From: Paraglaciecola psychrophila 170
GTDB lineage: Bacteria > Pseudomonadota > Gammaproteobacteria > Enterobacterales > Alteromonadaceae
Assembly (NCBI RefSeq): GCF_000347635.1
Contig: NC_020514.1
Coordinates: forward strand, 5,332,001-5,396,000
Direction of reading: 5' to 3'
Length of the DNA stretch: 64,000 nucleotides
The position numbers and the translations under genes are program-made. The notes beneath the pieces were generated by a model. The model was not told where the DNA came from. It did not search any database and saw only the letters and a list, made by a program, of their open reading frames with translations. The first letter of the stretch is position 1. Every line of letters starts with the position of its first letter. Positions 35,453 to 39,891 of the stretch are shown piece after piece.

Positions 35453-36646
35453 TTAGATGACTATTGATTCATTAAAGTATTTGATAAAATCAAGTTTATA
35501 ATCACTTGCGATCACAGCATCAACAATTTTTACGCCATTGCTAGCTGCAGTTAAATCCAGTTCTTTGGGCTCCAAATAGTGGCTACCACGTACTGAATAA
35601 AATACTTTCACAACGGGTTTATTGGCATACACCGGGTGTTGTTTGAGTACCATGGCAATTTTCTGGTTGTTGAGTTTAACTAAACTGCCCGCAGGGAAAA
35701 TGCCAATACATTGCACAAATTGTGTTACAAATCCTTCATCATACTTTTCAGGCGCATCTTGCAACAAAATTTGCAGTGCTTTTTTAGATGACATTCCAAC
35801 CTTATAACATCGGTCTGCTGTTATCGCATCATATGTATCCACTATTGCAATCATACGTCCAAATGTGCTGATTTCATTCCCACGAAGACCTTCTGGGTAA
35901 CCATAACCGTCGAGCCTCTCGTGGTGTTGACCAATTGTTTCAACAATGGAATCAGGCATGCCCATTTCAATCAGCACTTTGGTGCCGTAGTACACATGGT
36001 CTTTCATAGTGGTCATTTCTTGGTCATTTAAGCGCCCTGGTTTATGCAATATTTCATCAGGAATTTTAATTTTACCTATATCGTGTAAAAAACCCGATAG
36101 CGCCAATTCTTGAATTTGTTCTTCATTCAAGCCTAGATGGGTACCAAAATTGGCTAACAAAATAGCCACATTTAATGAATGCTCTAAAAGGTAGGTGTCT
36201 TTTTCTCGTATTTTTGTCGTGCACATCAATGCATTAGGGTTGCGATTAATTGACGACACAAGATTTTTAGTAAACGCTTCTGGGATGGCAATATCGATAG
36301 GTAAGTTTTTACCTAAGCTCTCTAACATTGTTTTTTGGAGGTGTTTACCTTTGAGGTGAAGTTTGGCTGCCACTCCAAGCTCAGCTTCAAAAGATGCTTC
36401 TTCAGGCGGCTCGGTAATTTTTTCGGGCTCGGGCTCTTGTTGTGCAACAACTTCCGGCTTGATTTGTTTGCTCATATCAACAACTACTGACAAAATTCCT
36501 TTGTTTTTTAGATGTGTTATAGCGGCAAGAGAAGTAACCCTACCTCGACTAATAATCTTAAATTTGCCTTGTTGTTTTGCTATAGAGTCAAAGAACATTC
36601 CTTCTTCAACATCGTCTGTATCAAAGGTTTTCAACACAGTTAACAT
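35453..36646 (-). CDS. HD-GYP domain protein (cyclic-di-GMP phosphodiesterase)
   Basis: A 397-aa protein with an N-terminal DUF3391-like region (residues 1-~60), a Pro/Glu-rich linker (EPEPEKITEPPEE) and an HD-GYP domain. Key motifs: the HD pair in FLHDIGKIKIPDEIL, HVYYGTKVLIEMG and HHERLDGYGYPEGLRGNEI with the GYP signature. All look intact, so c-di-GMP hydrolysis is expected. In this family the enzyme lowers c-di-GMP and promotes motility over biofilm. Confidence 0.94.
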   Translation of the reverse strand: MLTVLKTFDTDDVEEGMFFDSIAKQQGKFKIISRGRVTSLAAITHLKNKGILSVVVDMSKQIKPEVVAQQEPEPEKITEPPEEASFEAELGVAAKLHLKGKHLQKTMLESLGKNLPIDIAIPEAFTKNLVSSINRNPNALMCTTKIREKDTYLLEHSLNVAILLANFGTHLGLNEEQIQELALSGFLHDIGKIKIPDEILHKPGRLNDQEMTTMKDHVYYGTKVLIEMGMPDSIVETIGQHHERLDGYGYPEGLRGNEISTFGRMIAIVDTYDAITADRCYKVGMSSKKALQILLQDAPEKYDEGFVTQFVQCIGIFPAGSLVKLNNQKIAMVLKQHPVYANKPVVKVFYSVRGSHYLEPKELDLTAASNGVKIVDAVIASDYKLDFIKYFNESIVI

Positions 36647-36731: not shown

Positions 36732-37076
36732 CTAATACTCTAATTTCCATAACATTTCTGCCAAATCAGGTTGCCATTGATAAAGGCTAAACTTAACTCG
36801 GTTATTAAAAACAGCAACCTCTTCTAGTTGCAATAAACCTGTTTGTATTTGTGATTGCTCAGATCCTGTGGGGAATGCAATTTGTCCATTAGAACGCAAG
36901 ACTCTATGCCAAGGTACGTTCATATTTTTTGGTACGTAACCAAGTGACTTGCCTACTAACCTTGACCGCCCTGGTAATCCTGCAAGATCAGCAATTTGGC
37001 CATAACTTGCCACTTTTCCCAAGGGAATGAGCTGCACTGTGCGCCATATTTTGGTGTATTGCGGGTGTTCAAACAT
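36732..37076 (-). CDS. Alkyltransferase-like (Atl) DNA-repair protein
   Basis: A 114-aa MGMT-fold DNA-binding domain. The active-site PCHR of true methyltransferases is PWHRV here (Trp in place of Cys), the hallmark of Atl proteins that bind O6-alkylguanine and channel it to nucleotide excision repair. Other conserved segments are GKVASYGQIADLAG and GLLQLEEVAV. It starts nine bases after the Wzz-like gene and is probably its operon partner. Confidence 0.92.
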   Translation of the reverse strand: MFEHPQYTKIWRTVQLIPLGKVASYGQIADLAGLPGRSRLVGKSLGYVPKNMNVPWHRVLRSNGQIAFPTGSEQSQIQTGLLQLEEVAVFNNRVKFSLYQWQPDLAEMLWKLEY

Positions 37077-37085
37077 AGCAACAAC

Positions 37086-39080
37086 TTAGCTTGTCACAAC
37101 AAAATTATATTGTGTTTGGATCTGCTCTAAATCAAGCAGTTTTCCTTGTTGGTTAACATTTCGATAAAGTGCTAAGTCACTGGGCGAGGTGTATCCGGCA
37201 ACCTGTTCAATATCATTGAGTCTGGCACCTTGCCTAGCCAAATACGTTAAATATGTATGCCGAAGAACGTCGAGCGATAGCTGTCCGGGGAAAGCAATCT
37301 GTGCATCATGGCCAATATTGACTAAAAGCTGCAAAAAGTCTTCGTTGCTTTTAATATTCGACCAAATTGTTGCTTCATCTTTTAATTTGTTGCATGTAAC
37401 TTGTAGTGCTTCAGCCAGTTCTTTCTGAATGTATATGTTGCGAGAAAATTGGCTATCTATCTGTAAAGTCGAATAATGTTGGCTGAAGTTTGTTTTTTCT
37501 ATTCCCCATAATTCGTTAATAGTTACACCACTCAATAGTAAACCTATTATTGCCTTGCCTTGGTTATTTGCGACAGAAAACAAAGCCTGACATTCGTATG
37601 TACTTAACAAACGCAGTGTTTGGGTTATGGGCGATAATTTAAGCGGATCTGCTGGCAATTCTGGTGTGGGCGTCGAAAGCTGCCCATGTTGGGCATAACT
37701 TAGGCTTGACGACCCAACATTGTTTGCTTGTCTGGGCATAACAACAAAATTATGAGGCGCAGCAGTAATGACTTTTTGCCTAACAATAAAGCTATACAAT
37801 AAAAGCGAAAATACGGCAGCAATAGTGGCAACAACTAGGCTCAATAAAGTATTGAATTGATAATTTGGTCCGATTGCGAAATCAGGTTCAAATGCCGGCT
37901 CAAGCAGGGTTATCTTGGCTTCAAAAGGTTTAGATACTTCTTGAGCTACCTGTTTATTTGTTATGATTAGAGCCTGAGATTGTAGCGCCTTCAATTCATT
38001 GTCTAACCTTTTATATTGCTCAAGCTTCTGACTAAAGCTTTGTGCTAATTGAACTTGCTGTACTAACATGGTGCTTAACTGCTTAGCTTTTCCATTAGCC
38101 GTGTTTAAGTCTCGTTGAGTATCTTGTATATACTTCAATTGGCTTGTTTGCATTTGCACTTTAAGCTGTTGCTCCAGTTGCTGTGCTTTTTTTTGTTGAG
38201 AGACAATAGTTGGGTCACGTTCCAAGTAGGCTTCAGTATACTTTTCTGATAAGGCTATTAATTTGGCACTGATATCTTGAAGGTTTATTTTTGTGTCATC
38301 TATTTGTGATTTATCATCTGGTCGAATAACCTCTTGGCCCCTTTCAATAGATTCAGTCAAGCTATCAAGTAATGCTTTGGCTTGAGCTTGATCTGCGACG
38401 GCTTGGTCAAGACTTTCCCCTAAGTTTTTGGTTTGACTTAAAACCCGATTTTCATCTCGTTCTAGCGATGTAATATTGTTTTCTAGGGCGAATAATTCTA
38501 AAGATTGCTGTTGATTGGCGATTTTATCTTCTAACAGTGCTAACTGTTCGCTTGAAACCTGTAACTCCACATTATTACTAACTTCAGTTTCAGACTCGAC
38601 TAACTGCAAATAGACTTTTGAGAGTACATCTAAAATTGGTTTAAGAACTTGTGGGTCATTGCCATTGGCTTTAAGTGAAAGAATACGGCTTGTTAGACTG
38701 GCTTCCACTGATAATGCCTGAAAAAGTGTTTGAACATCAATTATCAATCCCTGGCCTTGCTCTAACTCTTGGGAAACACGACTCAACACGCTATTACTTT
38801 TTAACCTTTGTTGATGCAGCGTAATTTGCTGCTGAGCCAAATCAGCGAACCCTTGGTCAGTTTTTGATTTATATGAAAAATGCAAAATAGATTGGCTTTG
38901 GTAAACCGGAGCTTGGCTCCATATCAAAGCATTGGTGATTATTAGCACCAACAAAAACATGCCTATTAAGACCTGCCATCTTCGCTTTTGAATCCGTTTG
39001 TGTTCCACGTCGGATGCATTTGTACCAACGCCAGAAAAGGGTTGATTTGGCATATAGTCTATTTTGTTATTAAATGACAT
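37086..39080 (-). CDS. Wzz/GumC-like protein with C-terminal tyrosine-recombinase-like domain
   Basis: A 664-aa protein. Residues 35-53 and about 411-432 are membrane helices; between them lie a Wzz-type beta region and a long coiled coil (residues 170-370), the layout of polysaccharide co-polymerases. In Wzc/BceF-type proteins a BY-kinase follows the second helix. Here residues 484-650 instead read like a phage-integrase catalytic fold: IIGLLLSGVTINELWGIE and LSLDVLRHTYLTYLARQGAR then VAGYTSPSDLALYRNV. The first Arg is replaced by Thr520, the HxxR His by Asp604 and the later His by Tyr630, but Arg607 and Tyr639 are kept, so recombination activity is unlikely. An adjacent Atl gene is 9 bases downstream. 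Confidence 0.8.
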   Translation of the reverse strand: MSFNNKIDYMPNQPFSGVGTNASDVEHKRIQKRRWQVLIGMFLLVLIITNALIWSQAPVYQSQSILHFSYKSKTDQGFADLAQQQITLHQQRLKSNSVLSRVSQELEQGQGLIIDVQTLFQALSVEASLTSRILSLKANGNDPQVLKPILDVLSKVYLQLVESETEVSNNVELQVSSEQLALLEDKIANQQQSLELFALENNITSLERDENRVLSQTKNLGESLDQAVADQAQAKALLDSLTESIERGQEVIRPDDKSQIDDTKINLQDISAKLIALSEKYTEAYLERDPTIVSQQKKAQQLEQQLKVQMQTSQLKYIQDTQRDLNTANGKAKQLSTMLVQQVQLAQSFSQKLEQYKRLDNELKALQSQALIITNKQVAQEVSKPFEAKITLLEPAFEPDFAIGPNYQFNTLLSLVVATIAAVFSLLLYSFIVRQKVITAAPHNFVVMPRQANNVGSSSLSYAQHGQLSTPTPELPADPLKLSPITQTLRLLSTYECQALFSVANNQGKAIIGLLLSGVTINELWGIEKTNFSQHYSTLQIDSQFSRNIYIQKELAEALQVTCNKLKDEATIWSNIKSNEDFLQLLVNIGHDAQIAFPGQLSLDVLRHTYLTYLARQGARLNDIEQVAGYTSPSDLALYRNVNQQGKLLDLEQIQTQYNFVVTS

Positions 39081-39276: not shown

Positions 39277-39891
39277 ATGACGACTATAAAAACGAATAAA
39301 AGACAAATATGTGAAAAATGTGGTTACCCACAAAACACCTGCTTATGCGTTTGGGTAAATCCCATTACAGCGCCACTTAATATCATTATTTTACAGCATT
39401 CTAAAGAAGCAAAACATGCAAAAAATACAGTTAAGTTGTTAGCCTTAGGATTAAAAAAGATAACAGTGTTAGTGGGTGAAAAACCCGACGACTGGACAGA
39501 ATTAGCACAACATGTCGCTAAACAACCGCAAGATTACAGCTTATTTTATCCGCATGAACAAAGTACCTCAGTTGAATCTATTTCCTCACCAGAACTAAAA
39601 CAAAGGGTTTTCCCAGTTAATCACAATGTAATATTTATTGATGCATCATGGCGTAAAGCCCTGAAAATTTGGCACCTTAATCCTTGGTTACAGCAATGTA
39701 ATAACTGGCACTTTACTAATCCACCTGATAACCAGTACCACATTCGACACACATCTCAGCAAGATAGCCTATCGACGCTAGAGTCAGTAGCTTATGTACT
39801 TGAGCATACTCACAACATTGATTGTAGTCAGTTGCATGCTCTGTTCTCAAAAATGCAGCAGAAATGTTTCCTAGAAAACTACAAGCAATAA
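39277..39891 (+). CDS. DTW-domain protein (tRNA-uridine aminocarboxypropyltransferase-like)
   Basis: A 204-aa protein. The N-terminal Cys pairs (CEKCGYPQNTCLC) form a zinc-like knuckle, and the core has ILQHSKEAKHAKNT, FIDASWRKALKIWHLNPWL and DSLSTLESVAYVLE. The DTW/DGTW motif reads D-A-S-W. The family transfers an aminocarboxypropyl group from SAM to uridine in tRNA. Confidence 0.9.
   Translation: MTTIKTNKRQICEKCGYPQNTCLCVWVNPITAPLNIIILQHSKEAKHAKNTVKLLALGLKKITVLVGEKPDDWTELAQHVAKQPQDYSLFYPHEQSTSVESISSPELKQRVFPVNHNVIFIDASWRKALKIWHLNPWLQQCNNWHFTNPPDNQYHIRHTSQQDSLSTLESVAYVLEHTHNIDCSQLHALFSKMQQKCFLENYKQ

Follow-up and report, generated by a model that had tools for sequence, protein, structure and literature searches.

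Tyrosine-recombinase domains form cyclic oligomers by handing a C-terminal segment to the neighboring subunit, and in Wzc kinase rings each tail is inserted into its neighbor. In the PCP-2a group of polysaccharide co-polymerases (PCPs), represented by Wzc, the kinase domain sits behind the second membrane helix (TM2), as described in the accessible part of PMC11986026. For EcpK/EpsV and HfsB/HfsA, excerpts of PMC12004946 propose a dead BY pseudokinase as a non-phosphorylating cytoplasmic scaffold of PCP-2 that acts by binding alone. Among recombinase-fold proteins, MrpR (YopR, the SPbeta master repressor) keeps three of seven key residues, has lost recombinase function and binds DNA, according to the available portion of PMC10516654, which also lists the active-site residues of tyrosine recombinases.

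Here we describe a gene that joins a PCP to a recombinase fold. Within the window, i.e. the whole 64,000-nucleotide stretch of Paraglaciecola psychrophila 170 that was analyzed, an intact minus-strand open reading frame encodes a 664-residue protein with a PCP head and a recombinase-fold tail, an architecture that we regard as near certain (Table 1). A gene-prediction artefact or frameshift was rejected, as many genomes carry open frames of the same architecture. Like Wzc and other PCP-2a proteins (7nhr, 9r64), the protein has two membrane helices, a PCP-like periplasmic part and a folded cytoplasmic domain behind TM2; unlike them, that domain has a recombinase fold rather than a P-loop BY-kinase fold, and a Tyr-rich C-terminal tail is absent from the translation. 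With EcpK/EpsV and HfsB/HfsA it shares a catalytically dead cytoplasmic module, for which a scaffold role is proposed there and inferred here, but their partner is a separate protein of BY-kinase fold in the excerpted text, whereas the present recombinase fold is covalently joined. By structural match, the tail has the same tyrosine-recombinase fold as MrpR and SroF of phi3T; MrpR, however, is described in the portion consulted as a DNA-binding repressor with a core-binding domain, whereas the fusion tail is net negative, membrane-bound and devoid of that domain. The catalytic-domain fold is also that of XerA, XerC and XerD, whose Arg-II and Tyr are kept in the fusion tails, but these mostly lack Arg-I, Lys, His-II and the later His/Trp, their charge is reversed and they are fused to a membrane protein.

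Table 1. Features of the fusion gene and its downstream neighbors, in window coordinates.
Feature	Coordinates	Strand	Basis
Whole gene: PCP head, two membrane helices, linker and recombinase-fold tail; stop codon included	37086..39080	-	homologues alike in length and order
PCP (Wzz/Wzc-like) part, residues 1-435: TM1, alpha/beta base, long periplasmic helices, TM2	37776..39080	-	TIGR03007; AF2/Foldseek; PF02706 in relatives
TM1, about residues 35-54	38919..38978	-	hydrophobic stretch of the translation inside model helix 22-55
TM2, residues 407-434	37779..37862	-	model helix 407-434
Flexible cytoplasmic linker, residues 436-487	37620..37775	-	pLDDT <50
Degenerate tyrosine-recombinase catalytic domain, residues 488-664	37089..37619	-	sequence profiles and structural matches
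HxxR remnant, Asp604 (His lost) to Arg607 (kept)	37260..37271	-	His in 4/100 and Arg in 92/100 representatives
Tyr639, equivalent of the nucleophile, kept	37164..37166	-	92/100 representatives
Asp592, near-fixed in the family	37305..37307	-	98/100 representatives; Ile and Arg in two active-type reference rows
Alkyltransferase-like gene (ogt superfamily; PWHRV), 9 bp downstream of the fusion gene	36732..37076	-	follows the fusion gene in 15/34 loci
Third co-directional gene, HD-GYP-like (HDIG) protein	35453..36646	-	after the alkyltransferase-like gene in 14/34 loci

The full-length AF2 model, built on a 45-row alignment, has a mean pLDDT of 81 and a pTM of 0.37, with the relative placement of the parts not fixed. 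It has the PCP topology, in which two membrane-type helices flank a periplasmic part made of an alpha/beta base and long helices; the disordered linker and the tail come after it. Foldseek with this one model matched the head to Wzc (9r64/7nhr, E 2.5e-9), KpsE (8tsh) and WzzE (8bhw); overall TM-scores to Wzc were low (0.2-0.3 by query length), the parts being placed differently. NCBIfam model TIGR03007 matched the window protein at E 5.5e-7, below its curated cut-off, and PF02706 (Wzz) gave no Pfam match for the window protein itself; PF02706 was found in many relatives, jointly with PF00589 in 27 of the 120 listed. Three other Wzz-family matches above cut-off occur in the same genome, in open frames of 342, 751 and 404 aa. 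Assignment of the protein as a predicted two-helix inner-membrane PCP of the Wzz/Wzc fold is thus well supported by modeling.

The original prediction had placed a recombinase-like tail at 37131-37631 (residues 484-650), in the position of a BY-kinase, and had proposed structure prediction with Foldseek and an orthologue search as checks. On the tail alone, PF00589 scored 30.7-30.9 bits against a cut-off of 27.1 (E ~3e-7), NCBIfam XerA matched at E 1.7e-8, far below that model's equivalog cut-off, and two PHROG integrase families matched at E <1e-3. A profile of 38 tail sequences, three of which had no PF00589 match at E <= 1, retrieved XerA (E 1.2e-14), IntI4, a XerC-like protein and XerD from the PDB, and chance similarity was rejected on these matches. 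For the tail, Foldseek with the full-length model returned XerA, Tn1549 Int, HP1 Int and P2 Int. A model of the tail has the fold of a tyrosine-recombinase catalytic domain, with MrpR, YopR and SroF among the structural matches. Pfam and NCBIfam yielded integrase and no kinase family for the P-loop BY-kinase position. The predicted tail is therefore borne out by PF00589, XerA, the PDB profile matches and the intact frame, and its place by the model, where it lies behind TM2 as the Wzc kinase does in the accessible part of PMC11986026; the orthologue search returned 254 fused proteins (redundant). An N-terminal core-binding domain was not seen in the AF2 model, in which about 50 disordered residues and TM2 precede the tail.

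Such a fusion had been thought undescribed, and none was found in the open-licence PMC literature among the matches listed (titles and abstract starts). In the parts seen of PMC6805351, PMC10734457, PMC12472240 and PMC11376589, both kinds of term occur, but for separate genes only; neither integrase nor recombinase occurs in PMC4594306. The proteins already stand in databases under split names (GumC family protein; tyrosine-type recombinase/integrase; Tyr recombinase domain-containing protein), so the sequences themselves are not new, and either half-name alone misleads as an annotation.

Alignment columns were assigned from the known set of tyrosine-recombinase active-site residues and read against two XerC/XerD-like rows from the same genome. 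As the original prediction had read it, the window tail carries Thr520 at the first Arg, Asp604 at the HxxR His and Tyr630 at the later His/Trp, and keeps Arg607 and Tyr639. The same pattern runs through all 254 fused tails (redundant, and including two short pieces, P0111 and P0117): one tail has the first Arg and four have the HxxR His, with Arg607 in 242, Tyr639 in 243, Arg547 in 251 and Asp592 in 250. Among 100 representatives (<70% identity), the first Arg occurs in 1, the HxxR His in 4 and the later His in 7, while Arg607 and Tyr639 are kept in 92 each and Asp592 and Tyr610 in 98 each. At the putative beta2-beta3 hairpin Lys column, K is found in 30/30 active-type domains vs K/R in 4% of 93 tails. 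The full set R, K, H, R, H/W, Y is thus incomplete in the tails; a live recombinase was rejected on the residues of the 100 representatives and, with most catalytic residues lost, the domain cannot be an ordinary recombinase. A Pro in the C-terminal segment is kept in 90 of the 100 representatives and is Asn in the window protein. Judged from these columns, what remains is not random decay: a particular half-site stays and new residues are near-fixed. We consider it well supported that a tyrosine-recombinase domain, exapted and lacking the full catalytic set, forms the cytoplasmic part of the protein. Three deviating members were noted. P0180 alone among the 254 has Arg at the first catalytic position, yet lacks the HxxR His; in a Chromatiales MAG (L051) Arg607 is Trp and Tyr639 is lost too, and in Motiliproteus (L052) Arg607 is Phe, both with an eroded tail and the domain retained.

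Charge separates the tails from active-type domains, a sequence label for catalytic domains with HxxR, the first Arg and the Lys column intact, not an assay result. These were chosen as good profile matches; of 32 loci entered, the coverage filter removed L056 and L058 and left 30, among which L117 and L118 are identical. Net charge is negative in 49 of 50 tails (mean -7.5, highest +0.4), whereas it is positive in 30/30 active-type catalytic domains (mean +8.1, lowest +1.7); the first 38 tails were all net negative (-2.6 to -11.3), and the window genome's own XerC/XerD-like domains carry a positive charge. Nineteen columns hold K/R in half or more of the active-type domains; 4 of them stay basic in the tails and 15 are lost, 3 of the 15 being absent from all tails; besides the first Arg and the putative hairpin Lys, the losses include strongly basic columns at 587 and 622. 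By net charge and basic columns, the DNA-contact chemistry of the tail appears to be lost, and DNA binding by it is doubtful. Because MrpR, a dead recombinase, binds DNA, the tail may nevertheless carry a local DNA-binding patch. The earlier proposal of a recruited non-catalytic module linking envelope assembly to the nucleoid hence stands as to the loss of catalysis and is weakened as to DNA binding and the nucleoid link.

Searches with the tail region returned 94 proteins, a full-protein profile 112 (three with kinase-type domains and no tail match), and a profile started from distant members 271, of which 120 were listed, all with the tail. From 259 sequences, five lacking a tail match were excluded (the short P0121 and P0123, and P0124-P0126, which have kinase-type domains), and the resulting 254, the window's included, span Alteromonadaceae, Colwellia, Motiliproteus, the Aromatoleum/Azoarcus/Niveibacterium group and Burkholderiales. 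Named hosts are Paraglaciecola, Aliiglaciecola, Alteromonas, Colwellia, Motiliproteus, a Chromatiales MAG, Aromatoleum, Azoarcus, Niveibacterium and Burkholderiales MAGs. Across 60 genomes (the window's own and 59 relatives), the full-length protein was found in 18, comprising 17 of the 22 of the same genus (own included) and 1 of another genus in the family; a nineteenth genome matches part of the head only. In wider samples, which share genomes and whose counts are lower bounds with up to three candidates scored per genome, at least 6 of 369 genomes of the class (own included) carry it at >=416 bits, the next match being head only at 85 bits, and at least 3 of 398 genomes of the phylum (own included), all in the same class. 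Plasmid records gave no match to the protein. The fusion is thus well supported as rare yet old, scattered among gamma- and betaproteobacterial lineages. In one same-genus relative (L015), the fusion gene contains one in-frame TAA, possibly a pseudogene or a sequencing error.

Selection on the tail was quantified as dN/dS over 25 pairs, in 2 of which tail dS was not computable. Values were below 0.14 in 19 of the 23 computable pairs: 0.027-0.080 in 15/15 Alteromonas pairs, 0.074 in the one computable pair of three from Aliiglaciecola, and 0.103-0.134 in 3 Paraglaciecola pairs. Higher values were obtained for Colwellia (0.27-0.28 in two pairs; 0.88 in a third with dS 0.025) and Aromatoleum (0.38 in one pair). 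Tail dN/dS exceeded that of the head in 17 of the 23 computable pairs, head values taking in some upstream codons where the open frame passes the start, which tail values do not. The low dN/dS gives good support to a tail function that is probably kept under selection. Head and tail distances correlate over the 100 representatives (r 0.907; 0/1000 permutations as high). In a tree of 51 of these tails and 30 active-type domains, a branch with SH-aLRT 100 separates the tails from the active-type domains, with program warnings of long branches and uneven composition; a single origin of the tails is favored, not proven, given the narrow outgroup and long branch.

The alkyltransferase-like and HD-GYP-like genes accompany the fusion gene as a pair and a trio in part of the 34 loci (Table 1). 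The PWHRV of the alkyltransferase-like protein presumably places Trp at the acceptor Cys position, active alkyltransferases having PCHRV. In Colwellia L043, the fusion gene is accompanied by Wzx-like (Polysacc_synt) and acyltransferase genes that score above Pfam cut-offs; Wzy/ligase-like, TarF-like and glycerol-3-phosphate-cytidylyltransferase-like genes are also there, scoring below NCBIfam cut-offs. In L129 a GT2 gene is directly downstream. GGDEF (diguanylate cyclase) genes are near the fusion genes of Motiliproteus and the Chromatiales MAG. Elsewhere among the loci inspected the neighbors are unrelated (thiG, Band_7, malate synthase and others), and most of these loci, the window included, have no recognizable polysaccharide cluster around the gene; a conserved polysaccharide operon was rejected, as neighbors vary between lineages. 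Promoter and terminator patterns around the gene showed no clear excess over shuffled sequences (9 vs mean 12.1; 5 vs 3.6).

Our best reading, to which we give about an even chance, is an exapted scaffold that replaces the kinase in the control of PCP ring assembly. The tail would take the place of the BY-kinase domain as in PCP-2a proteins and serve as a protein-binding scaffold, governing how the PCP ring forms and comes apart around the polymerase Wzy, independently of tyrosine phosphorylation. Since the cyclic C-terminal exchange of recombinases and the tail insertion of Wzc kinases are alike, one ring-forming module may have replaced another, a recombinase domain for a kinase. The fold and its fusion, the position behind TM2, the loss of catalysis and DNA contacts, the low tail dN/dS, head-tail co-divergence, the SH-aLRT 100 branch, the retained C-terminal Pro, the L043 and L129 contexts and the EcpK/EpsV and HfsB/HfsA precedent speak for such a scaffold; ring coupling, however, is not evident from a tail joined to TM2 by about 50 disordered residues in a model of pTM 0.37, most inspected loci lack a polysaccharide cluster, constraint on the tail is weaker than on the head in 17/23 computable pairs, and a scaffold alone does not explain why Arg607 and Tyr639 are retained. 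The main rival addresses these residues: a putative remnant pocket (Arg547, Arg607, His608, Tyr639, Asp592) would bind a phosphate-bearing ligand, with a cyclic dinucleotide or a lipid-linked sugar phosphate as candidates, and relay the signal to the PCP ring via TM2. Ligand sensing fits the persistence of Arg607 and Tyr639 despite loss of the first Arg and the His, and the near-fixation of Asp592 and Tyr610, a pattern pointing to selection on particular residues and not on the fold alone; genes of the c-di-GMP type also lie nearby, HD-GYP-like in the window and 14/34 loci and GGDEF at the Motiliproteus and Chromatiales loci. Yet neighbors vary by lineage, so that the c-di-GMP link may be chance, and the kept residues may be structural; we hold a sensor to be rather unlikely.

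Third after the scaffold and the sensor comes a DNA tether, which we judge improbable: the tail would bind DNA uncut, like MrpR, and join envelope polysaccharide assembly to the nucleoid. MrpR, YopR and SroF are among the structural matches, the downstream neighbor resembles a DNA-repair type, and Tyr639 is kept; in the available portion of PMC10516654, Tyr304 of MrpR seems crucial for DNA binding. The charge reversal, the lost first Arg, putative hairpin Lys and basic columns at 587 and 622, and the missing core-binding domain, which MrpR has, argue against tethering, and the hairpin Lys absent from the tails is kept in MrpR according to the same portion. That the tail is an inert passenger, a decayed integrase remnant without a job, we consider very improbable: in its favor are the incomplete catalytic set, the loss of even Arg607 or Tyr639 in a few members and a slightly weaker constraint on the tail than on the head in most computable pairs; against it stand the low tail dN/dS in 19/23, residues near-fixed across deep divergence, and the co-divergence of head and tail. 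Extending the scaffold reading, we tentatively suggest, with clearly less confidence than in the scaffold itself, a phosphorylation-free PCP-2 subfamily in which the putative C-terminal-tail-exchange ring of a captured recombinase domain, its DNA chemistry lost, replaces the BY-kinase ring, possibly ligand-gated at Arg607/Tyr639. If true, evolution would have arrived a second time at a way of controlling Wzy-dependent polysaccharide assembly from the cytoplasm. The family provides a testable case of PCP-2 control without a kinase, bearing on what drives octamer cycling when phosphorylation is absent, and an instance of a DNA-recombination fold that was transferred to an envelope protein and has been retained in it over long divergence.

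Further observations concern genes around the fusion and elsewhere in the genome. A DTW-domain gene (PF03942; window 39277-39891, plus strand) lies divergently upstream of the fusion gene, and in Alteromonas L036 a DTW gene follows it. At C1:583915-584527 and 2340649-2341312 of the same genome (L057, L059, L060 and L062), two integrase-like genes are apparently split into adjacent frames; by their look, we take both to be integron-integrase-like.
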